Shown one piece after another: positions 3,605 to 38,955 of a stretch of 51,463 bases of DNA. The position numbers and the translations under genes were made by a program. Source of the DNA: Candidatus Desulfofervidus auxilii (GTDB taxonomy: Bacteria; Desulfobacterota; Desulfofervidia; Desulfofervidales; Desulfofervidaceae). The DNA lies in the NCBI RefSeq assembly GCF_001577525.1, contig NZ_CP013015.1:612193-663655 (forward strand). Direction: 5' to 3'. The first letter of the stretch is position 1, and each line of letters opens with the position of its first letter. The notes under the pieces are model-generated. The model was not told where the DNA came from, did not search any database, and saw nothing but the letters and a program-made list of their open reading frames with translations.

Positions 3605-3735
3605 TGTTGTCAACCCCAAAATCCGCGATTGATTTTTGGATACCTGTCTGCCGACAGGCAGGCCTGTCTGCCCCTGCCCGACGGCAGGCGGGGACAGGCA
3701 GAGCGGTGAACGCTTACAAAAATGCAATGCAATAT
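3605..3735. repeat. dispersed GC-rich palindromic repeat, copy 1
   Basis: An AT-rich word (AAAATCCGCGATTGATTTTT, 3617-3636) is followed by the palindrome CCTGTCTGCCGACAGGCAGG (3643-3662) and a longer GC-rich hairpin whose arms pair near 3663-3670 and 3692-3700. The same components recur at 21349, 30914, 34670, 49405 and 50730 in either orientation. The base composition is much richer in G+C than the surroundings. Confidence 0.8.
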
Positions 3736-3830
3736 AAAGAAAATTATTTACAAATTTTAATGGTCATGATAATTGTTTAAATAATGAAGCAGTCAATAAA
3801 ATCGGCAGAGACACATCAGGCAGGATAACT

Positions 3831-4415
3831 GTGGCCTTTTCCTATAACCCCACTCATGTTGCAAAGGTAAAAACCATTGAGGGTTACAAATGGCACCCCA
3901 AAGAAAAACACTGGAGTTTTCCATACTCAGATGGGGTTATCGATAGAATTCTATCCATCTTTAAAGGCGAAAAAATCGAGCTTGATCCTACCCTGCAAGT
4001 TACCAAGAAGAGTCTGAAAACAGAACTCAATTTTGAAGACTTGAGGAGAGAACTCACCTTAGCCGCCCTGGAAATGTTGAGAGAGTATTGGAAAAAGTTT
4101 GGACCTTCCTCTAAGTGGTTATTTCCGGGTGATAGGTCAAATCAACACCTTCATTCTAGAAGTGTCCAGAAGATTTTTACCAATGCCTGCAAGAAAGCAG
4201 GAATAACAAAGGAGGTCTCGGTTCTCTCTTTGAGGCACAGCTTTGCTACGCATCTATTGGAAAGCGGAGTCGATCTCCGATATATCCAGGAAATTCTGGG
4301 TCACAAAAGCAGTAAAACAACCGAGATTTATACCCATGTCTCGACCAAAAACCTTTCAGCTATTAGAAGTCCTTTAGATAGCATCTTAGATCAAAAGGGA
4401 GGTGGTGCTCTATGA
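3831..4415 (+). pseudogene. tyrosine recombinase/integrase remnant with internal deletion
   Basis: The 194-residue frame joins the two ends of a tyrosine recombinase. The N-terminal part contains Y-N-P-x-H-V and [11 protein letters not shown], an extra domain seen in some thermophile integrases. Homology in the same frame extends upstream of the ATG ([11 protein letters not shown]). The C-terminal part has [22 protein letters not shown] and the nucleophile context I-Y-T-H-V. Missing are the core-binding domain and the first catalytic Arg; the junction is near [10 protein letters not shown] (about residue 80). The His of the HxxR box reads Leu. About half of a normal length near 390 residues is absent, so the protein should be catalytically dead. 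A second, shorter relic lies at 34785-34960. Confidence 0.85.
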
Positions 4416-4434
4416 GAGTCGAGTCTCATCCATG

Positions 4435-4497
4435 GGAGGTATATACGAACTAGTTCGCATATACCTCCAATTTGGATGTATATCTGAACCAGTTTAG
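4435..4497. promoter_or_regulatory. tandem operator-like palindromes upstream of the TIR gene
   Basis: Positions 4435-4468 form a nearly perfect 34-bp inverted repeat: GGAGGTATAT and ATATACCTCC arms around the core CGAACTAGTTCG. A second, degenerate copy of the core (CTGAACCAGTTTAG) lies at 4484-4497 and is also preceded by GTATAT. Two spaced dyads with a shared half-site 70-130 bp before a start codon suggest binding sites for a dimeric regulator. The long arms could alternatively form an RNA hairpin that ends the integrase remnant's transcript. Confidence 0.5.
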
Positions 4498-4569
4498 AAA
4501 TAAACAAGTTATATGAAATTGCGCCCTGTCAAGGATACAATTTAATTTTTGAAATAGGTGTATTAAACA

Positions 4570-6837
4570 ATGAGTTTAGAGGATAGTATTAGTAAATTCA
4601 ATAAAAAGGTCCGAGAAGGACTCTATAATGAGGCGTTTGATGTTTTCTGGAGTGACCTTGGTAATTTACTCAGAGCAGAAGGACGCTTCAAGGAGTATCT
4701 CGATTTTATCAGGTGTCTTTTCCCTAATGGAGAATTTATTGCTCCTGTTCTGAAGGAACGAAATATAGGATGGGCTCATCTGATTTTAGGTATGGCATAT
4801 TATGAAAATGGTTTTCCCGAAATTGCACTAAAACACATCGGGTTAGCTAGGGGCCGAGATTGGAATTTAACTGAATGTTTAAGTATCGAAGGGGCAGGCA
4901 TGCTAATACAAGGGCAGTGTCAGATCCTTCTCGGAGATCTTCCGAAAGCAGAAGAAATACTGAAAACTGTTGCTGAGAAGGACATATATGCTTCTGGTCA
5001 CAGAATCACTGCTAATCTATTACTTAGCCATGTTGCCCTGTTGTCGGGCAACCAATCAGAAGCAAGACGCCGAATATCGATCAGTAAGGAAATTCTACAG
5101 TCTAATGAGAAACTGAGCGGGTTTTCAAAGGATGTGATTTGGCGTGAGACATTCTTGGAAAGGTGCCTTGGGAATTATGAAAGAGCTATCCATCTCGCTA
5201 CTACTTTAATCAACTATGGGAATATCATATCGAAGTTTAAAGGGCACTTAGTTCTTGCTGCAGCTTATCGAAGCTTAAATGAGCTATCAAAAGCTGAATA
5301 TAATTTACAGAAAGCCAAAGAAACCTTGGATAGAAATGATAAATCCCATCGCCTTGCCAACTTACTGCTTGAACGGTCAAAACTGGAAATCAAGAAACAA
5401 AACCATGCCGAAGCTGAAAGACTGGCCTATAAAGCACTTGAAATCGGAAGAAGAGGAAGGCTTCTCCCCATTACAATGGAAGCTTGCATACTCCTAGCAG
5501 AAGCGGAGAGTTTTCTTGAGCAGTGGAGTTCTGCTGCCAATCATCTATCTTGTGCCGAGGATTTGAGCAATCAGCATAATAATAGTCTGACTTTTGCCAG
5601 CCTCCTCAAACGCCTTGAAGTAGTAAAGAAAAAAGTTAATGCCAACATTCAATCACCTGAAATCAATCTGATTGAGAATCAACGCCCCATTCATTTCAAA
5701 AAAGCTACAAATCTCAATCTGAGAGCCTGGGATGTTTTTATATCGCATGCAAGCGAAGATAAACGTGAAGTGGCTGACCCACTCTTCAAAGCTCTAACCG
5801 ATAGAGGGTTAAACGTTTGGTATGATACAGTCTCTCTAAAAATTGGTGATCGCCTTTTAGAAAAAATAGATGAAGGGCTAGCTCACTCCTCTTTTGGAGT
5901 TGTAATATTGTCCAAGAACTTTTTTCAAAAGAAATGGACAAAATTAGAGATTGACGGGCTTGTTGCGACTGAAGGCAAGCGAGGTTCGAAGATCTTACCT
6001 GTATGGCACGGGGTTTCAGAGGATGATGTCAAGAATTTTTCTCCTATTCTTGCAGGGCGCGTAGCAGGGAATACAGAATCGGGCATTGAGAAATTGGCCG
6101 ATAGGTTATACGAAGTCATTCGTGGATCTCATGAACAGGATATTGGTATAGCACCATTCGCATGTATAATATTTGACGAGCACTGGGAGCTTGTTGGAGG
6201 ATCTGTTTCCCTTCTTGGATTCGTTTCAGAGGTGAGATATAACATAAAAAAGGGGGTAAAGCCAATATGTAAAATAGTTTGCAGGGGTCTGTCTTCCGCC
6301 CGTACTCAAGTTAGCAAGTTGGAAAGATCCCCAGAAAGATCTCCTGCTAACAGAGTTCGCCACGTTGCTCTACTTAAATGGATAGACAGATATAGTAAGG
6401 CAGAAAACAACTTACGGGAAGGGATTAAGATGATTCTAACACATCCTGCGCTTGCGAAAGCTGGATGTTTGGAAGAAGACTCTGAAATGGCACAATGTTT
6501 ACTTAGTTTTATACGATTGTATCAAGGCGAAGAGATAGCTCCAAAAGATGCATCAACGTCCTTCGATCTATTTCGCATGCGTCCCCCAACACTTCATACG
6601 AGGGTCAGGTTAACTGAAGAGGAAACTGAATATCTTAAACGGGTAGCGGGTGTAGATAATATTTTCTATCTCACTAGCCCATGGGAGTTAACTGCGATGG
6701 ATCTTCCTCTCGAGGTCATGAGAACACAGGCCATCCCTAAGATTGTGTATGAGGTTCAAGGGTATTGTCTTAAGACAGGCGACAAGAAATTGGATGAGTT
6801 ACTAGACCTTTCTTCATGGTCCTGTGGACTTGCATAG
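4570..6837 (+). CDS. TPR-TIR protein with uncharacterised C-terminal domain (candidate defence NADase)
   Basis: The 755-residue protein has three parts. Residues 1-370 are tetratricopeptide-like helical repeats (for example the segments around residues 75-105 and 225-300). Residues 387-510 are a TIR domain, beginning W-D-V-F-I-S-H-A-S-E-D-K, with S-K-N-F-F-x-K-K-W-x-K-L-E. Glu460 sits where the NAD-hydrolysing Glu of bacterial TIR enzymes is found. Residues 520-755 match nothing I recognise. Bacterial TIR proteins with repeat domains commonly act in abortive phage defence by depleting or converting NAD. That role is inference here, supported by the island context (integrase relic upstream, mobile modules downstream). 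The start is an ATG with a weak purine stretch (TAGGTG) upstream. Its G+C content looks a little higher than that of the following ATPase gene. Confidence 0.85.
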   Translation: MSLEDSISKFNKKVREGLYNEAFDVFWSDLGNLLRAEGRFKEYLDFIRCLFPNGEFIAPVLKERNIGWAHLILGMAYYENGFPEIALKHIGLARGRDWNLTECLSIEGAGMLIQGQCQILLGDLPKAEEILKTVAEKDIYASGHRITANLLLSHVALLSGNQSEARRRISISKEILQSNEKLSGFSKDVIWRETFLERCLGNYERAIHLATTLINYGNIISKFKGHLVLAAAYRSLNELSKAEYNLQKAKETLDRNDKSHRLANLLLERSKLEIKKQNHAEAERLAYKALEIGRRGRLLPITMEACILLAEAESFLEQWSSAANHLSCAEDLSNQHNNSLTFASLLKRLEVVKKKVNANIQSPEINLIENQRPIHFKKATNLNLRAWDVFISHASEDKREVADPLFKALTDRGLNVWYDTVSLKIGDRLLEKIDEGLAHSSFGVVILSKNFFQKKWTKLEIDGLVATEGKRGSKILPVWHGVSEDDVKNFSPILAGRVAGNTESGIEKLADRLYEVIRGSHEQDIGIAPFACIIFDEHWELVGGSVSLLGFVSEVRYNIKKGVKPICKIVCRGLSSARTQVSKLERSPERSPANRVRHVALLKWIDRYSKAENNLREGIKMILTHPALAKAGCLEEDSEMAQCLLSFIRLYQGEEIAPKDASTSFDLFRMRPPTLHTRVRLTEEETEYLKRVAGVDNIFYLTSPWELTAMDLPLEVMRTQAIPKIVYEVQGYCLKTGDKKLDELLDLSSWSCGLA

Positions 6838-6950
6838 TTCCTTTGTAAGTCTCTGATGGAAAGTGAATGCGAGGCTTGCATCTAAGACTGTGTTTTTGGC
6901 AATAATGAGTACATAGTGTTCTGAAAAAGAGGAAGGGGACGCAACTTCAT
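6838..6950. other. short spacer between the TIR gene and the hairpin-bounded modules
   Basis: No gene or clear terminator is visible. The stretch leads into the first inverted-repeat boundary at 6951. Confidence 0.4.
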
Positions 6951-7263
6951 ATAACAGCGGATAAAAGGGAAATCAAAGATTTCCCCAAATCCCGCCCTCT
7001 ATGCTTTTATGTATTATGTATATGTTTTGAAGAATAAAAGAATGAACCGGCTCTATATTGGCTATACTGAAGACCTAAACAGAAGATTGAATGAACATAA
7101 GAAAAAGGACGACAGTGTAGAGTTAGTCTGCTACGAAGCTTATACTTATGAAAACCAGGCACGTGCAAGAGAGAGAAAATTGAAACTATATGGTAGTGCT
7201 TGGCGAGGATTAAAGAAAAGGTTAGGATTATAGTGCTTAGAGGGCGGGACTTCTTTTATCCGC
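6951..7263. mobile_element. module A: GIY-YIG ORF inside a palindrome
   Basis: The left end reads AACAGCGGATAAAAG (6953-6967), followed by a small hairpin GGGAAATC/GATTTCCC (6967-6985) and CCCGCCCTCT (6991-7000). The right end is the inverse: AGAGGGCGGG (7239-7248) and CTTTTATCCGC (7253-7263). The GIY-YIG ORF fills the interior. An unloaded version with the same left end (39 bp identical) and the same right end, but only about 17 bp of unrelated sequence between them, lies at 38726-38793. This loaded/unloaded comparison defines the module. Its outer bases (ATATAAC on the left, GTTATAC at 7269) resemble attC R'' and R' boxes. Confidence 0.75.
7009..7233 (+). CDS. small GIY-YIG domain endonuclease-like protein
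   Basis: The 74-residue product is a bare GIY-YIG domain: Y-Y-V-Y-V-L-K at the N-terminus, L-Y-I-G-Y-T at about residues 19-24, R-R-L-N-E-H (about 29-34) and a C-terminal E-N-Q-A-R-A-R-E-R-K-L-K segment that holds the expected metal-binding Glu. Members are stand-alone minimal nucleases, and many sit in repeat-rich or mobile settings. No good ribosome binding site precedes the ATG. The ORF lies within the arms of an inverted repeat, with the stop codon about 6 bp from the right arm. It may be the mobility function of the surrounding module, or a passenger. The domain call is strong; the role is inferred. Confidence 0.85.
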   Translation: MYYVYVLKNKRMNRLYIGYTEDLNRRLNEHKKKDDSVELVCYEAYTYENQARARERKLKLYGSAWRGLKKRLGL

Positions 7264-7298
7264 ATTCCGTTATACGCCATTGCTAACAAGGTGGTAAG

Positions 7299-7532
7299 AT
7301 GAAAGTGTTTGCATATGTAGTAGGTGCATCAAATAATCCCGACGCTGTAGAATGTATGGTTCCGTACAAAGTTAACAAGGATATAATCTTCTTTGGACCT
7401 TGTAAAAAATCTTTAAGAGAGAAATTGTATAAAGAGTATTTGAAAAATTCTAATAATGGGGAAGCAAATGTGCTTGACGATATTTATGTGTTGGGTGTAA
7501 ACGCATCTAACCTAACTCAAAAAAAAAATTAG
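7299..7532 (+). CDS. hypothetical protein, N-terminal part of a frameshifted gene
   Basis: This frame encodes 77 residues from an ATG preceded by AAGGTGG. It ends just after a run of ten A residues (7519-7528). If the run had nine A's, translation would continue as ...Q-K-K-I-R-K-I-I-W-V-G-R-I-V-K-V-L-T-F-E-R-A-Y-N-V and join the 7621-8115 frame without a stop, giving about 272 residues. The beta-rich opening K-V-F-A-Y-V-V-G-A-S vaguely recalls Nmad-type (nucleotide-modification-associated) proteins, but I cannot confirm that. The break may be a real mutation, a slippery site or a sequencing error. The gene is the only content of the inverted-repeat module around it. Confidence 0.6.
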   Translation: MKVFAYVVGASNNPDAVECMVPYKVNKDIIFFGPCKKSLREKLYKEYLKNSNNGEANVLDDIYVLGVNASNLTQKKN

Positions 7533-7620
7533 AAAAATCATTTGGGTTGGTAGAATAGTTAAAGTTCTTACTTTTGAAAGGGCGTATAATGTCTTATCGT
7601 CAAAAAAGGAATTTAAAAAA

Positions 7621-8115
7621 ATGATAGAAGAGGAAGATTCTCCATTGCATTTAGAACCCATTTACAAGGGTGGAACTTTTGTCGGATATAAACTGCGGTC
7701 TAAAGAGCATGAAAATAATAGCGAGTGGGTTATGGATGTCACAAAAAATGAGACTGACCCTGATGTAGAGTTAGAAGGGAAGAAATTACTTTTGAAAGAC
7801 CCTTCTAAGCGAAAAGAGATCTTTATCCGAGACTGTGTTTTTTTGTGCGAAAATATATTCTTTGCCGAAGGAAAAGGGATAGATATTGATGAGGACATTC
7901 TTTCTATATTTAAAAAGGCTCAGCCAAAAAGAGATGGTGTAAGTAATTATGCCATTTTTGGTTTAAATAGTGATGGGCGAGCGAATGGACTTAAAGGAAA
8001 TTATCTTACGATTGATGATAGAAGCTTAGCAAGTGCTTTAATTGAGAAGATAACCAAGACCCGGAGTACATTTTCTCATAGTAAGGGTATTAAGCGTCGG
8101 GGTAAATGTAGATGA
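7621..8115 (+). CDS. hypothetical protein, C-terminal part of the frameshifted gene
   Basis: This is the downstream part of the gene that starts at 7299. The same frame is open from about 7525, so the ATG at 7621 is probably internal. It contains a charged region, E-E-E-D-S-P-L-H-L-E-P-I-Y-K-G-G, and a conserved-looking segment L-L-K-D-P-S-K-R-K-E-I-F-I-R-D-C-V-F-L-C-E. After that comes a low-complexity basic C-terminus (K-G-I-K-R-R-G-K-C-R). I do not recognise a family with confidence, and no signal peptide or membrane segment is seen. Whether a full protein is made depends on the A-run upstream. Confidence 0.6.
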   Translation: MIEEEDSPLHLEPIYKGGTFVGYKLRSKEHENNSEWVMDVTKNETDPDVELEGKKLLLKDPSKRKEIFIRDCVFLCENIFFAEGKGIDIDEDILSIFKKAQPKRDGVSNYAIFGLNSDGRANGLKGNYLTIDDRSLASALIEKITKTRSTFSHSKGIKRRGKCR

Positions 8116-8146
8116 ATATTAAGTTCAACGCAACGGCGTATACCAA

Positions 8147-8221
8147 GCGAGTATCTGGCTACGGTGCTTCGCACCTTCGCCCCAATTCCCTCGCTTCGCT
8201 CGGGAACTTCAGATACCCGCC
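8147..8221. repeat. module C: empty palindrome with internal hairpins
   Basis: Left arm GCGAGTATCTGG (8147-8158) and right arm CAGATACCCGC (8210-8220) pair with one mismatch. Inside are the hairpins GGTGCTTCGCACC and CCCTCGCTTCGCTCGGG. A related copy with similar arms lies at 11031-11100. The sequence is far richer in G+C than its surroundings. A short open frame over it (8112-8297) appears to be repeat sequence, not a gene. Confidence 0.7.
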
Positions 8222-8224
8222 AAC

Positions 8225-8389
8225 CGTCAGGCTGTGTAAAAAGTCAAAAAGTCTAATTAAGGGTCGCAAAAAGTGGGAGAAAGAGGTAAAATACTGATAA
8301 AAAGTGGCTTAGTAAACCCAATTTGTAATCAAATAATGTGGAATAGTGGGAAGGTAAAATTTTAAAAATACTTATCACACAATCTGCCG
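8225..8389. repeat. module E, copy 1: repeated segment bounded by inverted repeats
   Basis: The ends CGTCAGGCTGTGT (8225-8237) and ACACAATCTGCCG (8377-8389) are inverse to each other at 10 of 13 positions. The AT-rich interior contains several GTGGGA-type words and no gene. A copy with very high identity starts at 38798 in the second island. The right end is followed by GTTAGGCG, an attC R'-type core. About 125 bp of the interior is nearly unchanged between the copies. Confidence 0.8.
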
Positions 8390-8416
8390 TTAGGCGAAAT
8401 TCGCCCGCAGGAATAG

Positions 8417-9331
8417 GTGGAAAAGATGACGCAAAAAGAATACATAGAAAATATAAAAAATCGACAACTTAACTCAGATAAGGAGTTTATATTAGATTCT
8501 TTAACAGGGGCAATAGATAGATTACAAAAAGCATTCCCACGATACGGAAGTTTTTTAATGGAGTTTGTACAAAACGCTGATGATGCAAAAAGTGAGACTT
8601 TAACAATAGAGATATTGGAAGATACAGTAAAAATAACTAATAATGGAAATCCGTTTTCTGAAGAAGATGTAAAAAGTATTTGTAAGGTTGGGCGTTCTTC
8701 CAAAACACCGAAGGACTATATTGGATATTTGGGGGTTGGATTTAAAGCAGTCTTTTTCATATCTGAATGTCCACAAATATATTCCGGTGGCTATCAGTTT
8801 AAATTTGATAAAAGCGCATGGGAGGATCCGGAACATACTCCTTGGCAAATAATCCCTCTTTGGGTTGATACTCCAACTGTTGATATAGACAACAACAAAA
8901 CAAATTTCATTTTACCTATAAAAACCCATGACCTATTGGTAAAACTTAGGGAAGAAGTAAAGCCTGAACATTTGAACAATAGAATATTACTTTTCTTAAG
9001 AAATATAAAAGAGATTGAGATAAAAGATGCAAATCAACATTTAACAAGGAGATTTACGAAATCCGAGGTTTCTAAGACATCTGACTACGAAATTTATCAA
9101 ATTCAAGAATATGAAAACGAAACCCTTAAAACTCAAGATCACTGGTTAATCTTTCGAACTATTTGTAATGTACCTCCTGATGTGAAAAATGATTATGTAA
9201 CTAAAGAATGGGAAAGAGAAATCGTAGAGAAAAGAGAGGTATTAGTAGCCTTCAAATTAGATGATGAGAATAACCTTATAAAAGAAAAAAAAGCACTGCT
9301 CATATTGGAGTTTTTAGTTTCTTACCATTAA
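8417..9331 (+). CDS. sacsin-like HATPase protein, N-terminal part (frameshifted gene)
   Basis: The 304-residue frame carries a GHKL ATPase domain of the sacsin/Hsp90-like type. It has the N-box F-V-Q-N-A-D-D-A (about 50-57), I-T-N-N-G-N-P-F (about 74-81) and the glycine loop G-Y-L-G-V-G-F-K-A-V-F (about 102-112). Near 9290 the frame leaves the protein homology: the +1-shifted frame continues H-I-G-V-F-S-F-L-P-L-K-E-I-P-S-G-L, as expected of the family. The shift falls at a run of eight A's (about 9284-9291); nine would restore one frame of roughly 845 residues through to 10962. The likely start is GTG at 8417, or ATG at 8426. Such ATPases with a C-terminal DUF3883 occur in defence islands; a defence role is inference. 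Confidence 0.8.
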   Translation: MEKMTQKEYIENIKNRQLNSDKEFILDSLTGAIDRLQKAFPRYGSFLMEFVQNADDAKSETLTIEILEDTVKITNNGNPFSEEDVKSICKVGRSSKTPKDYIGYLGVGFKAVFFISECPQIYSGGYQFKFDKSAWEDPEHTPWQIIPLWVDTPTVDIDNNKTNFILPIKTHDLLVKLREEVKPEHLNNRILLFLRNIKEIEIKDANQHLTRRFTKSEVSKTSDYEIYQIQEYENETLKTQDHWLIFRTICNVPPDVKNDYVTKEWEREIVEKREVLVAFKLDDENNLIKEKKALLILEFLVSYH

Positions 9332-9375
9332 AAGAAATACCAAGTGGCTTAAATTTTCTTTTACAAGCTGATTTA

Positions 9376-10962
9376 TTGACATCACCAGGGAGAGGCGAAC
9401 TTGCCCGAGAATGTTTATGGAATAATTGGCTCGCAGATGAGATGTATAATCTGATCGTTAAAAAATGTATACCCGCGTTCTTAAACCATAATAAGTGGAA
9501 AATGACATTAACAGAAATTTTATATTCTTCAGAAGGTGGCCACGAGTTGTTTGAAGAACACATAAAAGAACCCTTGAATGAGTATCTTGAAAATAACCCA
9601 GTCTTGATTGATGAGAATGGCATACCATCAAAAGCCGAAGAACTTATCTCGGTGACTGAAGAAATGAGAAGACTTCTAAGCGATGACGATCTAAAATTAC
9701 TATATCCAGATAAAAAAATAATCCATAGCGAATGTAAACTCCATTTCAACATAAAAATAAAGAAAGCTCCTGAAGACATTTATAGATTTATCACGTCTTC
9801 AGAAAGCGAAGAATTCATAAAACAAAAAGCAAAAAACAAAGATATTGAGTGGTTTAAAAAACTTTATTCTATGTTTGTGGAGAAATATACCCATACATAT
9901 TTTTATAATCATTATCCTCGCTATAATGTGGAACACGATGATTTTTGGAATAGAATGCGTGATCTACCCAGACCAATTATGTTAACAGAAGACTATAAAG
10001 TAGCGAAGATAAACGATTGTTTTACTAATCCTAAAAAAATCAGAATCCCTGAGCAATTAAAAGATAAGTTTAGGATAGTACATCAGCAGATAGCAGCAGA
10101 TGAAAAGTTTGAGGAGTTTAGAAAAAAATTAAATGAAGAAAGGTATTATTATACTGTACCCAATACAAAAGTCCTCAGGGAATTAACCGAAGAAGATATT
10201 AAAAACGCTCTAAAACAGCAGGAAACTCTTGAACTAGATGAAAAAAAATGGGGAAAACTGCAAGAAGAAGAGAAAATTGAAAAAATAAAGGAAATCAAAA
10301 AACTGTGGGATGATTATTCTATAGAAATTGAAAACTATGACTTTATAACACTAAAAAGTAAAAGTGGAAAATGGGTAAAACCAGATTCTCTTATTTTCCC
10401 AAAAGAATACAACCCAGAGCATAATATCGAAATTCTCGCAAACAAAGGTTTAGTTGACATTCCCATGGAATTTGTAAGTTCAGAATTCATTATAAACTGT
10501 AGCGAGAATGAAATCAGGAGATGGCTAAAATTTTTTGAAGAGCTAGGAGTAGATAAAGCTTTAGAAAGTGAAAAGAAAGGCGGTCGCAAGGAAAAAATTG
10601 TACAAAGAATTGGCATATTGGCAGTTTTGAAATGCGAGAAAGAAGATGGAAGAACTGCCCGAGAATTAGGTGAATCCGAAAAACGGGGATATGATATTGA
10701 ATCAATGTCAGAAAACGAGGAAAGATATATTGAGGTGAAAAGTACCAGCGACACTTCTTATGACATCTTTCTTACTATAAATGAGTTTAAAGCTCTTCGA
10801 GATAAAAAAGAAAAATATTTTATTTATGTGGTCTTGGATGCTCTTAGAAAACCAACTGTACATATCACCCAAGGCGACAAACTTCTCGAAATTGAAGATA
10901 CAAAAGTGATTATTCCCTTTAGCAAATGGAGAGATCTAACAGATGAAGAATTTCAACCATAA
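9376..10962 (+). CDS. sacsin-like protein, C-terminal part with DUF3883 nuclease-like domain
   Basis: This frame is the continuation of the ATPase that starts at 8417; it is open from about 9295, so the TTG at 9376 is not a true start. The middle is charged and helical. The last 130 residues form a DUF3883 domain: E-S-E-K-R-G-Y-D-I-E-S followed by E-E-R-Y-I-E-V-K-S-T-S (about residues 432-460) and a hydrophobic strand Y-F-I-Y-V-V-L. The D-I and E-V-K residues match the PD-(D/E)XK nuclease core. Joined, the protein would couple an ATPase sensor to a nuclease-like domain. If the frameshift is genuine, this half is probably not translated alone. Confidence 0.8.
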   Translation: MTSPGRGELARECLWNNWLADEMYNLIVKKCIPAFLNHNKWKMTLTEILYSSEGGHELFEEHIKEPLNEYLENNPVLIDENGIPSKAEELISVTEEMRRLLSDDDLKLLYPDKKIIHSECKLHFNIKIKKAPEDIYRFITSSESEEFIKQKAKNKDIEWFKKLYSMFVEKYTHTYFYNHYPRYNVEHDDFWNRMRDLPRPIMLTEDYKVAKINDCFTNPKKIRIPEQLKDKFRIVHQQIAADEKFEEFRKKLNEERYYYTVPNTKVLRELTEEDIKNALKQQETLELDEKKWGKLQEEEKIEKIKEIKKLWDDYSIEIENYDFITLKSKSGKWVKPDSLIFPKEYNPEHNIEILANKGLVDIPMEFVSSEFIINCSENEIRRWLKFFEELGVDKALESEKKGGRKEKIVQRIGILAVLKCEKEDGRTARELGESEKRGYDIESMSENEERYIEVKSTSDTSYDIFLTINEFKALRDKKEKYFIYVVLDALRKPTVHITQGDKLLEIEDTKVIIPFSKWRDLTDEEFQP

Positions 10963-11264
10963 TTATTTATTTCCTGCGGGCGAACTCTCCGCTCCCTTCG
11001 GTCGCTCGTCCCTATCGGGAGTGTATAACAGGTGCGTATCCGGCTTCGCTATCGCTCCGTTCAAATTCCTCACTTCCCTCGCAAACTTCACATACCCGCC
11101 AAACCGTTACCGCTTAAGTGTTTTTTCACTTTTTAGGTAAGTGGGTGTTGAGGGGTTTCTTTCAGAGCAATCACGGTTCTGAGACAACTAGGAGTTTTGA
11201 GGAATATAAAACTGATTACATAATGGCAACACAGTTAACATTTGATAATTTTTTGCCAAACAAA
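10963..11264. repeat. structured gene-free stretch with module F palindrome
   Basis: After the right arm of module D there is a hairpin-rich GC stretch (CTCCGCTCCC pairing loosely with ATCGGGAG, 10987-11021). Next comes an attC-like palindrome (11031-11100): arms TGCGTATCCGG and CACATACCCGCC, flanked by GTATAAC on the left and CCGTTAC on the right. It is homologous to module C at 8147-8221. The remaining 160 bp to the helicase gene holds nothing I recognise. Confidence 0.6.
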
Positions 11265-34669: not shown

Positions 34670-34765
34670 CTGTCGGCAGACAGGCAGGGAGAAGCGCAGT
34701 GACCTGTCTGCCAACAGGCAGGGCTGCGGAATGCAGGCAGGTGGGTTTTCTTTTAAAGTAATTAC
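34670..34765. repeat. dispersed GC-rich palindromic repeat, copy in the second island
   Basis: Contains CCTGTCGGCAGACAGGCAGG (34674-34693) and a second partial palindrome, CCTGTCTGCCAACAGGCAGG, starting near 34703. An AT-rich word ending ACGGATTTTGGG follows. Related to the copies at 3605, 21349, 30914, 49405 and 50730. Confidence 0.7.
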
Positions 34766-34784: not shown

Positions 34785-34960
34785 TTATCTACAGATTTTA
34801 ATGATCATGATAACTGCTTTCCCACACACCTACTTGAAAGTGGGACAGATTTAAGGTATATTCAAGAGCTACTGGGGCATAAAAGCTCTAAAACAACTGA
34901 GATTTACACCCATGTGCGTGAGCAGGACATTGGCGGATTAAGAGTCCATTGGACACCATA
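34785..34960 (+). pseudogene. second integrase relic (C-terminal tail of a tyrosine recombinase)
   Basis: The frame [33 protein letters not shown] matches the C-terminus of the integrase remnant at 3831-4415 almost residue for residue. It stops at a TAG near 34960. The segment just before it (34785-34828) matches the segment just before the first remnant (3738-3776) at most positions and is in the same reading frame. Thus the two ends of the gene were joined by a larger deletion than in the first relic. Confidence 0.8.
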
Positions 34961-35237
34961 GGGAAGGGAGGTAATGAGGTTACAAAGAAGTGAATTCCCT
35001 ACTTTATGTACAGAAAGTTAAGTTCTTCCAGAGCAAGGTATAAACGACCCCATTCTATTATTTTAAGTTGGGCGAAATTTTGCTTGGCTTATTCGGATCA
35101 ATTGCAAAGCTAAGTAGGATAGCTAAGAAATCAAAATTAAATCATGTTCGAAATCAGCTTGTGTGGAGCTACTAGCAATGGTAACAATTCCTACTATAAG
35201 AAGTTTTTTAGAGTTTGGTTTAAAGAGAGGAAAGGCA

Positions 35238-35594
35238 ATGAAACGCTTTTTGTTCAATTTTAATATCGCTTATCTCTATGCCTTTATTGCTGGTATTTTA
35301 GTTTCGCTGGCAATTAACCTTTTTACCAGCGCACTTTTAACGACAAGCTTACCAATGAGTATTCATAGAGTATATGGGATAGCCTTATCTCTCTTTATTT
35401 CCTCTATCGGTGCTTTTGGAGTGAGCGCACTTTTAGAGAATGCACGAGGTGAGTGGGAGTCAGCAGGCTCTCCCTACAAATTGAAGAGAGATTTTATAGA
35501 GAGAAGAAAGTATATAGTTTGGATGTATTTTTCGTTGGCAATTTTCCTTAGCGGGGTTATATGTTCTGTACTTTTGTACATTTGGAGGAAATAG
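35238..35594 (+). CDS. small three-helix membrane protein paired with the P-loop gene
   Basis: The product has three predicted transmembrane helices (about residues 7-30, 45-65 and 93-113 from this start), separated by a basic loop (K-R-D-F-I-E-R-R-K). The start is taken at the ATG at 35238 because AGGAAAGG lies just upstream; in-frame starts at 35178 (ATG) or 35163 (GTG) would add 20-25 residues. No family is recognised. It ends 3 bp before the large P-loop gene, so the two are cotranscribed and probably act together. In defence systems of similar layout the membrane partner is the effector, but nothing in this sequence proves that. Confidence 0.65.
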   Translation: MKRFLFNFNIAYLYAFIAGILVSLAINLFTSALLTTSLPMSIHRVYGIALSLFISSIGAFGVSALLENARGEWESAGSPYKLKRDFIERRKYIVWMYFSLAIFLSGVICSVLLYIWRK

Positions 35595-35597
35595 AGA

Positions 35598-38500
35598 ATG
35601 GGTGAAATGCTACATCTTGAAGATGTGATGAAGGATTCTCGTAAAGGGTGGCCAACTTTCGATGATTTGCAAAAGAAAGAAGTTCTCCTTGACGAAAAAC
35701 TTATTAAAAAAGTTGAGGGCCTACTGCAAAGCAACCGGCGCTGCCTTATTAGAGGTGCCGAAGGGAGAGGCAAGACAGTTTTAGCAAGAGTTATAGGTTC
35801 TAATAAGTTCAAAAAAAATTGGAAAGTATATTTTATTGATATCCGCGAACTCAGGAAAGAAGATATTAATAGTATATGCCGTCAGATTGAAGCACTTGGA
35901 GAACAGAAAACTTTATTTATTATAGAAAATGCTCATGCCTCTTTAGATGAAATAACCCCCAAACTTATAGAGCTTGCAAATAATTGTCAAAAGCCTTCTT
36001 TTATCTTTACCTTAAGAAAGATATTCCCTGGGAAGGAATCACTTCTTATAATAAATCCTTTTGAGGAGTATGAAGAAAAAGGATGGTATGTAGATTTAAG
36101 TCCGGATTTAGGAATGATGCTAGGAATTATCACAACATTTATTTCAGCGAGAAATATACCTTATTCTCTTACGGAAGAAGATAAATCTTGGATAAAAAGA
36201 GAATTTGGGGAACAAAAGGCAAATTTGCGTAGGTTCAGATGGTATCTTGAGACATGGAGTGAAATAGGCGGTCCTCTTCATTCTGTACCCAAAGAGAAGG
36301 TTTTAGAGAGAGTGTTAAAGCAATTCCTCATCAGAGAGTTTAATACTGAGCTTCAAAAAATGCTAATCAAAATTTCAGCAGTATTCCAATTTGATGTAAG
36401 TTTCCATGGGGAGAATTTTGAGAAAAATATTCTAACAGAGCTTACTGAAAGGGGCGTCATAACATTCTTACCAGGAAATTATTATAGAATGCAACACTCT
36501 TCAGACGCAGCTTATGTCATAGAAGCTGAAGCAATTCTAAGGGAAACAAAGGAGCCTGAGGTTCTTACCGCTGATATTTTAAAACAGTACCTGCAAAAGA
36601 AACCTGTCAATTTTCTTGAATTAATGGGTGGTATATATCGCAATAAACAAAAGCTTATCTTGTCTCAAATCTTTAAAGACCAAGAAACGTATAACACCAT
36701 TTTTGGTATGATTAAGCAAGATGGTATCAGAGCTGTAAGTTCTGTCCTTCGTTATATAACTTGGGCCTGTGGCAAAGAAAAAGGATTAGAGTTTTGGTCT
36801 CAGTATAAGAAATTATGGGGCGATTCTCCAAAGGAACAAGGAGAAAAACTTAAAGAGAAACTAACTGGAGCATCTCTTATTGAAGTTGAGTTCCTACTTT
36901 TATTTTTAAGCAGAGTCGATGCTAATGAAAAAGATTGGTTAGCAACCGAGGCATTAGATGAGGATGTTTTAGTTAAAAAGGCAAAAGAGGCCTCATTTTC
37001 AATTATTCCAAATTTAATCAGATTATTACCTCACGAGAAAGCTTCACGGGTCATTTCTAAACTCAACCCAAACGATGTAGCGGAAAAGGCAAAAGCCGCT
37101 ACCGCCCAAAGGATAATGTGGTTTTTGAAGTACTGCTTACAAGATCCCTTCAGCATAAATTTTGTAAAATCATTTTTAATAATTCTTCATAAAGATGGCA
37201 AGCTAATAGAGAAGCTCAAAAATTCAGAGCTAAGTGTAATATTAAATTGCCTAGGTATTATTAAAAATATAGATCCTGAGGTATACAAAGACATCAAAGA
37301 TAATATTTCGCCACATTGGTTGCAAATATGGCTTTCTTCAAGTCTGAGTAGAGTTGCCAACCGACTTTATAGGTATCGTTGGTGTGTTGGAGAGCCAAAA
37401 AGATTTGCACAATCAGTAGTAAATAGTTTAGCTTCAAAACCACTTGGTGAACCAATTAAGAGGTTATATAGCCAACCTGAAACAAAGCCTCTTAAAGTCT
37501 TGGGCAAGTTATTAAATTCAGCTTATCAGGTTGCCTTTGAAGATGAAAAACATGCAGTGGAAAGGATCGCACAACAAATAGTAGATAATCTCAATTTAGA
37601 GATGCAACAAAGGTATACTATTGAGCAACTTTCCTTATTACTAAACAATGTTAAAATGTGTAGTGAAGAAACATGGCGTCAGCTGTGTAGTAGAATTCTA
37701 TCAGAATTAGACTTAGTTGATTATATAGGTATCCCCTTTGATAAAGGATTGGCCGCGCTTATGTGGAATATCTATCAATATAGCGAGGAAAAGGGGCAGG
37801 AATTAGCTGATGAGATATTCAAGTTAGATTTCAATAGACTTTTGGATAACTCAGAGACTGAAGCAATAAGTAGACTCCTTTGGAATCTGCTTCAGATTAA
37901 TAATTTAAAAGTTAAAAACTGGATTGAGAATATAGATAACGAAAAATGGCTTTCAAAAGCTCTATTATCTTCAAGACGTGATGCTTTTCGGCTTTTATGG
38001 AGCTTATGTCATGCCGATGAAGAAAAAGGAAAGGCAATAACACGTTCTCTTGCGAATAAAATATTGCCTACCTTTACGGCATTAAAGGTCGAAGACTTGC
38101 CTCTTCTTGGTTTTTTTATATTTTGCGGTATTTCGTTTAACTTAAACGTATCCTCCCTTTCGCCTTATGAAATTGCAGAAAAGTTTAGCGAGGAATTAAG
38201 CTTAAGTGAGCTGGCCTTTTGTATTTACTTGCTTAAGGAGAAAAATAATAAGATAATAAAAGAATTTTTAAAAGAGTTAAGCAGATTCTTATTTATAAGA
38301 TTTCCCACATTTTCAATACAAGAAATTATAGAAAAGTATCCGTTTGATATTACAAAGAATTTGCTTAAGGAAATCCTCAGGGATTTCGACCTCCCAAAAG
38401 AGCCAGATTCAACTTTTGCTGAAATGGTTTCTTTGACCAAAGTTTATTTAAAAGAGAGGGGCAAAACGAAGATAGCTTTTAGTCAATTAAAAGATTTCTT

Positions 38501-38696
38501 TCTCAAGAACCCTCCTGATGGCTCTATTTTTAAATCTGCAGATGACTCTACTAAGTGGCTTAGTATAGCTATAGAATATGGAATTTATCTTACAGAGCAA
38601 GTTCCCCATTATAAAAATCCATCTTGGATAGTAACATTATTATCTCTTAATAAGGATAGTAGTTTTGTTTCATCTTTCTGGGAAAATGAGGTATAA
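35598..38696 (+). CDS. 1032-residue P-loop (STAND-like) NTPase with long helical-repeat region
   Basis: The N-terminal region has Walker A G-A-E-G-R-G-K-T (residues 53-60) and a Walker B-like strand L-F-I-I-E-N-A-H (106-113), with Glu110 where many STAND proteins have Asp. A sensor-like strand follows, F-I-F-T-L-R-K (about 134-140). Residues 240-310 look like a winged-helix segment. Residues 350-1000 are almost wholly helical and include repeated units, for example F-R-L-L-W-S-L-C and L-L-W-N-L-L. The architecture recalls signal-transducing NTPases in which helical repeats sense a ligand. It pairs with the membrane protein gene upstream. No known defence family is recognised. Codon use is AT-rich, like the neighbours. 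Confidence 0.7.
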   Translation: MGEMLHLEDVMKDSRKGWPTFDDLQKKEVLLDEKLIKKVEGLLQSNRRCLIRGAEGRGKTVLARVIGSNKFKKNWKVYFIDIRELRKEDINSICRQIEALGEQKTLFIIENAHASLDEITPKLIELANNCQKPSFIFTLRKIFPGKESLLIINPFEEYEEKGWYVDLSPDLGMMLGIITTFISARNIPYSLTEEDKSWIKREFGEQKANLRRFRWYLETWSEIGGPLHSVPKEKVLERVLKQFLIREFNTELQKMLIKISAVFQFDVSFHGENFEKNILTELTERGVITFLPGNYYRMQHSSDAAYVIEAEAILRETKEPEVLTADILKQYLQKKPVNFLELMGGIYRNKQKLILSQIFKDQETYNTIFGMIKQDGIRAVSSVLRYITWACGKEKGLEFWSQYKKLWGDSPKEQGEKLKEKLTGASLIEVEFLLLFLSRVDANEKDWLATEALDEDVLVKKAKEASFSIIPNLIRLLPHEKASRVISKLNPNDVAEKAKAATAQRIMWFLKYCLQDPFSINFVKSFLIILHKDGKLIEKLKNSELSVILNCLGIIKNIDPEVYKDIKDNISPHWLQIWLSSSLSRVANRLYRYRWCVGEPKRFAQSVVNSLASKPLGEPIKRLYSQPETKPLKVLGKLLNSAYQVAFEDEKHAVERIAQQIVDNLNLEMQQRYTIEQLSLLLNNVKMCSEETWRQLCSRILSELDLVDYIGIPFDKGLAALMWNIYQYSEEKGQELADEIFKLDFNRLLDNSETEAISRLLWNLLQINNLKVKNWIENIDNEKWLSKALLSSRRDAFRLLWSLCHADEEKGKAITRSLANKILPTFTALKVEDLPLLGFFIFCGISFNLNVSSLSPYEIAEKFSEELSLSELAFCIYLLKEKNNKIIKEFLKELSRFLFIRFPTFSIQEIIEKYPFDITKNLLKEILRDFDLPKEPDSTFAEMVSLTKVYLKERGKTKIAFSQLKDFFLKNPPDGSIFKSADDSTKWLSIAIEYGIYLTEQVPHYKNPSWIVTLLSLNKDSSFVSSFWENEV

Positions 38697-38725
38697 GATA
38701 ATCATTACCAAGCAAAACATTTGCC

Positions 38726-38793
38726 TAACAGCGGATAAAAGGGAAATCAAAGATTTCCCCAAATTACCCTATCGGGCAACTTCTTTTATCCGC
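38726..38793. repeat. module A': unloaded palindrome
   Basis: The left arm starts AACAGCGGATAAAAG and is identical over 39 bp (38727-38765) to 6952-6990. The right arm is CTTTTATCCGC (38783-38793). Only about 17 bp separate the shared parts, whereas the other copy carries a GIY-YIG ORF there. The bases before it, GCCTAAC (38723-38729), match the attC R'' consensus. Confidence 0.75.
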
Positions 38794-38797
38794 AATA

Positions 38798-38955
38798 CGT
38801 CAGATTGTGTAAAAAGTCAAAAAATTTGATTAAGTGTCGCAAAAAGTGGGAGAAAGAGGTAAAATACTGATAAAAAGTGGTTTAGTAAACCCAATTTGTA
38901 ATCAAATAATGTGGAATAGTGGGAAAATAAAAATTCAAAATTAGTTATCATCTAT
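38798..38955. repeat. module E, copy 2
   Basis: Starts CGTCAGATTGTGT (38798-38810) and continues with very high identity to 8238-8360. The right end is degraded: TTATCATCTATG where copy 1 has TTATCACACAATCTG. It follows module A' with 4 bp between, whereas copy 1 follows modules A, B and C. Confidence 0.8.

Follow-up and report, generated by a model that had tools for sequence, protein, structure and literature searches.

What kind of element is formed by a row of accessory genes that each lie between the arms of their own inverted repeat? The question is raised by a 51,463-nucleotide stretch of the Candidatus Desulfofervidus auxilii genome (assembly GCF_001577525.1, contig NZ_CP013015.1, positions 612,193 to 663,655; hereafter the window), in which an original prediction, made from the letters alone, had described hairpin-bounded modules at 6951–11100. 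It proposed an unusual CALIN (a cluster of attC sites without an integrase) or an undescribed hairpin-targeted system. This came close, although its two premises, the absence of an integrase and a general loading of genes into hairpin loops, found no support. Positions 3798–11112 are, with good confidence, a degraded integron-like cassette array comprising a recombinase relic, an attI-like point and three cassettes, each with a terminal attC-like hairpin. Its recombinase is not the integron integrase IntI but a XerA-like enzyme that lacks the IntI-specific insertion (I2) and has a HARP-like N-terminus (hereafter HARP-XerA). All arm sequences quoted in the prediction are in the window, including CAGGCTGTGTAAAAAGTC (8228) and CACACAATCTG (8376) of its module E and its palindromes C and F. 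The modules are real and are cassettes, but they extend further than proposed: a TIR gene upstream is framed by GTTATATGAAATTGCGCCC (4508) and GGACGCAACTTCATATAAC (6937), and a second array lies at 34812–38953 of the same window. The features are as follows, with R1 denoting a covariance model of the hairpins and MITE a miniature inverted-repeat transposable element.

3798–4415, + strand: tyrosine recombinase relic of HARP-XerA type that has lost a large internal segment; PF00589 match
4432–4471, no strand assigned: near-perfect palindrome of 40 nt directly before the attI-like point; fold z −6.4
4472–4514, + strand: attI-like site ...CCAGTTTAGAAATAAACAAG^TTATATG, with the putative crossover G at 4508
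4508–6955, + strand: cassette 1, TIR-domain gene 4570–6837; 19-nt outer arms 4508–4526 / 6937–6955
6949–7275, + strand: attC1; R'' ATATAAC, stem GCGGATAAAAG (6957) / CTTTTATCCGC (7253), R' GTTATAC; GIY-YIG gene in its loop
6990–7249, + strand: GIY-YIG element in the attC1 loop; open reading frame 7009–7233, 74 amino acids; own inverted repeat CCCGCCCTCTA/TAGAGGGCGGG
7269–8144, + strand: cassette 2, hypothetical open reading frames 7299–7532 and 7621–8115; outer arms GTTATACGCCATTGC (7269) / GCAACGGCGTATACC (8130)
8138–8227, + strand: attC2 (palindrome C), its R' split by a MITE-like repeat; R1 67.4 bits; fold z −2.7
8228–8386, no strand assigned: MITE-like repeat (module E) on the attC2 R' site; ends CAGGCTGTGT / ACACAATCTG; putative target duplication CCGT
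8389–11029, + strand: cassette 3; a frameshift divides its sacsin/NO VEIN-like (TmtA-like) gene into 8417–9331 and 9376–10962
8400–8413 / 10971–10984: inner 14-nt arms of cassette 3, TTCGCCCGCAGGAA (8400) / TTCCTGCGGGCGAA (10971)
11023–11112, + strand: attC3 (palindrome F); R'' GTATAAC, R' GTTACCG; R1 61.9 bits
34812–34937, + strand: C-terminal scrap of an IntI/Xer-like recombinase upstream of the second array; 52.7 bits to TIGR02249
35067–38729, + strand: second-array cassette, open reading frames 35163–35594 and 35598–38696 with weak nSTAND matches; outer arms GTTGGGCGAAATTTTGCTTGG / CCAAGCAAAACATTTGCCTAAC
38723–38800, + strand: second-array attC, the empty counterpart of attC1; R1 65.6 bits; fold z −6.05; MITE-like copy from 38801

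The first step is to ask whether the boundaries are attC sites. The hairpins lie between genes and follow the register R'' (..AAC), AG, stem, loop, stem, AACC and R' (GTT..), so that sites with R''/R' boxes and a paired stem separate the cassettes as in integrons. Sixteen attC-like sites from the source genome and three relatives have a common 12-bp stem, with two-sided changes at 8 of the 12 pairs, indicating covariation. A simple regular-expression search for attC overlooked almost every site, and the covariance model R1, built from these 16, was used instead. It detected 24 sites at E<0.01 in the 2.54-Mb source genome, gave matches in 42 of the 297 phylum genomes and, at 7–11.2 kb of the window, found two sites plus the loaded attC1. 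Of 148 sites, 135 have an R'' with AAC at its end and 109 have GTT near R'; the strict boxes RYYYAAC (45/148) and GTTRRRY (32/148) are rarer. The bottom strands of attC2 (z −2.7) and of the 38723 site (z −6.05) fold better than 200 of 200 shuffles, and that of attC1 has a z of −2.6. The covarying stem, the R''/R' ends and the folding of several sites thus bear out the attC-like nature that had been suspected for the boundaries. Nothing relevant came up in Rfam, whether as an RNA family already described or as a model of attC.

By number alone, exact inverted repeats at 4400–11150 show no significant excess over dinucleotide shuffles, since the observed counts for repeats of at least 11, 13 and 14 nt were reached by 27, 28 and 12 of 200 shuffles. 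This would suit a reading of the modules as unrelated insertions, or chance inverted repeats round accessory genes, and the argument therefore has to be made from where the repeats lie and from how other loci compare. The arms round each gene begin at R', end at R'' and extend beyond the 7-nt boxes. We analyzed 36 cassettes from the source genome and phylum relatives, defined as the intervals between consecutive attC-like sites. Here the mean matching score between a cassette's own ends is 9.83, compared with 5.92 between ends of different cassettes, and 6.17 compared with 4.78 beyond the R box (0/20,000 permutations in both cases). Ends facing each other across one attC (6.50 and 4.62) match little or no better than unrelated ones. 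The expectation that the arms would stand out from shuffled sequence thus failed as a count and held for own over foreign arms. The comparison was repeated on a second set, 50 cassettes taken at 26 database loci that had played no part in framing the idea: own ends scored 12.26 and foreign ends 6.20, or 7.36 and 4.98 beyond the box (0/20,000 permutations each). Within this set, +8 and +9 match in 44/50 cassettes, +10 in 17 and +11 in 3 (A against G in 31), and matching resumes at +13 (33/50) and +14 (32/50). There is, then, an outer stem with a conserved mismatch at +11. The classical IntI array of the same genome has no matching beyond the R box (4.62 vs 4.75). The simple reading is that each cassette carries one long palindrome, which would be joined in a circle and parted to two ends after insertion. 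Chance repeats are contradicted by these tests, by covariation, and by the common cassettes and recombinase linkage described below; we give that explanation practically no weight. In at least three arrays, some cassettes also have an additional small hairpin (CTCCGC..TTCGGT.. type) that separates R'' from the outer arm, for example at 10985–11022 of the window, in L011 (reverse strand) and in L061.

Do the genes lie within the palindromes, as originally described? Strictly, this is true of the GIY-YIG element (6990–7249); for the others, attC hairpins lie between genes and the arms are the two ends of one cassette, and the notion that all modules are loaded loops was rejected. The GIY-YIG gene is truly within the attC1 loop, and the same attC without the insert is found at 38723–38800. 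Although this pair would fit gene loading into attC loops by a hairpin-targeted system, the element has its own inverted repeat, a search of related arrays totaling 544 kb turned up no second loaded loop, and none of the element's relatives elsewhere can be seen to sit within an attC-like hairpin. Such a system is accordingly very improbable. The element has a single copy in the source genome. An apparent second loaded site in L244 resolved into two ordinary attC sites. Module E was likewise rejected as an empty cassette: it is a dispersed repeat of ~160 bp that has no own attC stem. It occurs in about ten copies, full or partial (including 38801–38953 and L032–L042), and several of these lie exactly on attC R' sites, where the junctions read CCGT or ACGT.

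Which enzyme accompanies the array? The statement that no integron integrase gene is present needs revision, as a relic of a non-IntI recombinase (3798–4415) and an attI-like site lie directly upstream, and a true IntI integron exists elsewhere in the genome. The relic fuses residues 6–93 (88% identity) and 248–332 (93%) of a fuller genomic copy, P0001 (C1:2127888–2128931), which is itself frameshifted near the catalytic Tyr. At six loci of the source genome (the window and five more), a recombinase relic lies upstream of attC-like sites on the same strand. The window relic scores 103 bits against NF040815 and 98 bits against TIGR02249, both under the cut-off. The XerA-type model NF040815 (cut-off 220) is passed by the fuller copy (232.9 bits) and by an intact relative (245.9 bits). 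The IntI model TIGR02249 (cut-off 265) is passed by neither (187.7 and 231.6 bits), and matches in two stretches that skip the insertion region. Moreover, the GLR-to-RH motif spacing is 93 residues in nearly all family members compared with 134 in IntI, so that the recombinase lacks the IntI-specific additional domain (I2/patch). The catalytic residues are invariant across 31 aligned members. In a quick tree, the family forms a clade (Shimodaira–Hasegawa-like approximate likelihood ratio test, 96–97) separate from IntI (99), and both fall inside one group set apart from XerC/D. The N-terminus resembles the HARP domain PF07443, which 18 of the 31 members match at E<=1 (best 5e-5); two members score 14.3 and 21.3 bits, under the Pfam cut-off of 25. 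A structure model of the recombinase (mean predicted local distance difference test score 82.5, predicted template-modelling score 0.55) aligned best with both VchIntIA (2a3v) and XerA and therefore does not discriminate between them. In two genomes, a HARP-like N-terminus is fused to a true IntI with the insertion (L187/L210 in G021; L190/L211 in G200), which might connect the two recombinase types in evolution.

Is this recombinase tied to the arrays? Among the 297 phylum genomes, seven have a close homologue (E<1e-70), and 7/7 are R1-positive, compared with 42/297 overall; in five of them (G043, G164, G042, G078 and G182), R1 sites lie 1–2 kb downstream on the same contig and strand. A database-wide scan yielded 80 loci with a related recombinase, in Nitrospirota, WOR-3, Marinimicrobia, Acidobacteriota, Chloroflexota, Spirochaetota and other bacteria and in archaea, for instance Methanophagales, Altarchaeum and Geoglobus. 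At these loci, 69 R1 matches lie downstream on the same strand, six downstream on the other strand (all at one locus), and one and four upstream. Where the downstream sequence reaches 2.5 kb or more (48 loci), 33 loci show an R1 match, and the rest are mostly distant relatives. In the cultured Rufibacter tibetensis and Chryseobacterium sp. SNU WT5, a family-type recombinase gene is plasmid-borne and followed by small same-strand genes. Given the weak R1 scores on these plasmids, their sites represent a divergent form. For six Rufibacter cassettes, 1/720 permutations, the true pairing itself, matched as well with the R box included, and 46/720 beyond it; in Chryseobacterium, ATAAACAAG^TTGGG follows the recombinase gene. 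IS110-family transposases within both arrays (L306, L308) are reminiscent of attC-targeting IS1111/IS110 elements.

The window array might instead be a CALIN or relic on which a true IntI acts in trans, the XerA-like neighbor being a bystander such as a resolvase. The source genome does hold a complete classical integron (G000:C1:2230000-2239256, L009), in which an intact IntI (498 bits) is accompanied by cassettes that form a divergent array. An intact IntI is likewise present in several further genomes that have R1 arrays, IntI action in trans on CALINs is accepted (PMC9668308), and NCBIfam places the recombinase with XerA. However, the attC sites of the IntI array are built differently, without R1 matches or outer arms; indeed, no R1 match occurs in L009 or in 138 kb round 12 regions with TIGR02249/IntI-like matches. 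In many phyla, R1 arrays come after the XerA-like gene and share its strand, and the attI-like point is conserved. We therefore regard service in trans as unlikely and retain HARP-XerA as the array's probable own recombinase.

Where would cassettes enter? After the window relic lies AAATAAACAAG^TTATATG (4508), and a motif ending AAC(G/A)A|GTTA occurs in 28 loci at a median of 195 nt beyond the catalytic Tyr codon, as well as after the recombinase in copies from the same genome. In L017, a segment matching the 4432–4471 palindrome follows the fuller recombinase copy. As a sequence motif, this G^TT point beside the recombinase gene resembles attI and would be where cutting occurs.

Have cassettes moved? 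A WOR-3 cassette beside the attI-like point and a TA06 cassette, from two candidate phyla, are 96% identical over 1477 nt, with unrelated flanks on both sides. G015 and a Methanocellales archaeon have cassettes that match at 86% over 212 nt; the match begins precisely at G^TTAGGC, behind attC sites that differ. A Nitrospinae mid-array cassette matches a deltaproteobacterial cassette at attI (76%). By sequence comparison, gene cassettes have moved between phyla. Together with own-end matching, these common cassettes in different contexts point to units that move with exact boundaries. The modular arrangement foreseen at the outset is thus supported: orthologous cassettes have different neighbors, the arms recur elsewhere with different genes, and single cassettes recur alone, so that the region has not evolved as one block.

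How might the system work? The association of recombinase and arrays, their architecture, the cassette-specific matched ends and the common cassettes with different flanks are supported directly, and in intact form the system most likely operates like an integron. HARP-XerA, by a mechanism that dispenses with the IntI insertion, would act on a folded single-stranded substrate, cutting the cassette out in circular form at attC (G^TTRRRY-like point). The two outer arms would meet in the circle and lengthen the attC hairpin. Circles would then insert at attI beside the recombinase gene or at another attC, and the outer arms would be separated to opposite cassette ends. Such parting of the arms would be why each gene looks framed by an inverted repeat. 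The same components could instead perform Xer-like recombination on double-stranded sites with two strand exchanges, the hairpins being incidental or regulatory. The lack of I2 would suit this version, as would the inverted repeats beside the attI-like point, which resemble double-strand binding sites, and the first ~10 nt after the G, which differ in one common cassette as an overlap region might (a single case). The covarying attC stem, the strong folding of several sites and the cassette-specific matched arms argue for the folded form, leaving the double-strand version a minority possibility, though one of some weight.

Several points weigh against an integron-like array moved by HARP-XerA. 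Published work describes I2 of IntI as necessary for cassette capture and as present in no other protein (PMC7790495). R1 is built partly on sites of the source genome, and attC3 folds no better as a single strand than its 200 shuffles (z +0.4). Distant relatives lacking the HARP-like N-terminus (Patescibacteria) mostly have no R1 matches, and many R1 arrays (e.g., G001 and G015) lie on contigs without a HARP-XerA recombinase, so that other enzymes may mobilize them. The WOR-3/TA06 pair differs in the first ~10 nt after the G, so that the exact crossover point is tentative. Finally, no recombination was observed, and no before/after strain pair was found. The array agrees with integrons in every feature tested from sequence but one, the recombinase; because this is not IntI and lacks a domain considered necessary, we class the array as a new integron-like variant rather than an IntI integron.

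What would this mean more broadly? We lean, by a modest margin over even odds, towards a second integron lineage across bacteria and archaea, with an I2-less XerA-like recombinase bearing a HARP-like DNA-binding domain and circles that act as one arm-closed long hairpin. If so, it would either be related to IntI integrons as their sister or forerunner or have solved the same task independently, and some orphan attC clusters would become broken or overlooked complete platforms. An I2-less family consistently beside attC-like arrays challenges the I2 rule or reveals another form of hairpin recombination. Moreover, HARP-XerA makes the origin of integrons directly testable and could explain part of the IntI-less attC clusters, archaea included. 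Its arrays are a marker for cassette exchange between domains, and the cassette-specific outer arms bear on how cassettes are born.

The window array itself is decaying, given its frameshift-split sacsin gene and deleted recombinase, and this copy of the system is probably inactive. Its cassettes include defense-like cargo, the TIR and TmtA-like sacsin genes; a search of the 297 phylum genomes for the cassette-2 protein returned only its own copy. Elsewhere in the window, dispersed GC-rich palindromes of the CTGTCTGCCGACAGGCAGG type, resembling repetitive extragenic palindromes, occur at 3640–3720 and near 34680, as well as in L010. Positions 394–1007, by appearance an insertion-sequence remnant, are 98% identical to a stretch near C1:2.09 Mb (L062).

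How does the system compare with those already described? Like integrons (IntI, attI, attC), including sedentary chromosomal ones, it has tandem same-strand cassettes, hairpins with R'' ..AAC and R' GTT.., an attI-like point beside the recombinase gene and cassettes common to distant taxa. Unlike them, its recombinase falls outside the IntI clade, lacks I2 and has an extra HARP-like domain; its cassettes point the same way as the recombinase gene and have specific outer arms with a conserved mismatch. Archaeal integrons likewise combine attC arrays, an attI downstream of the integrase gene and many CALINs, but their integrases carry the IntI-specific domain (PMC9668308). A survey of tyrosine recombinases reports that the insertion is not fully conserved in an "integron-like" subgroup of simple tyrosine recombinases (PMC8138268), so that insertion-less relatives were already known as sequences; its passages on that subgroup tie no insertion-less member to attC arrays. 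Among the open-access papers searched, we found none that links the HARP-XerA type to attC arrays. The family passes the cut-off of XerA/NF040815 ("site-specific tyrosine recombinase/integron integrase"), with the same catalytic core and no IntI insertion, but differs in its HARP-like N-terminus and in adjoining cassette arrays. Finally, a search for IntI and attC might label the window array a CALIN, in IntegronFinder's term; unlike a CALIN, however, it adjoins its own recombinase relic and attI-like site, and is therefore a broken platform rather than an orphan cluster.

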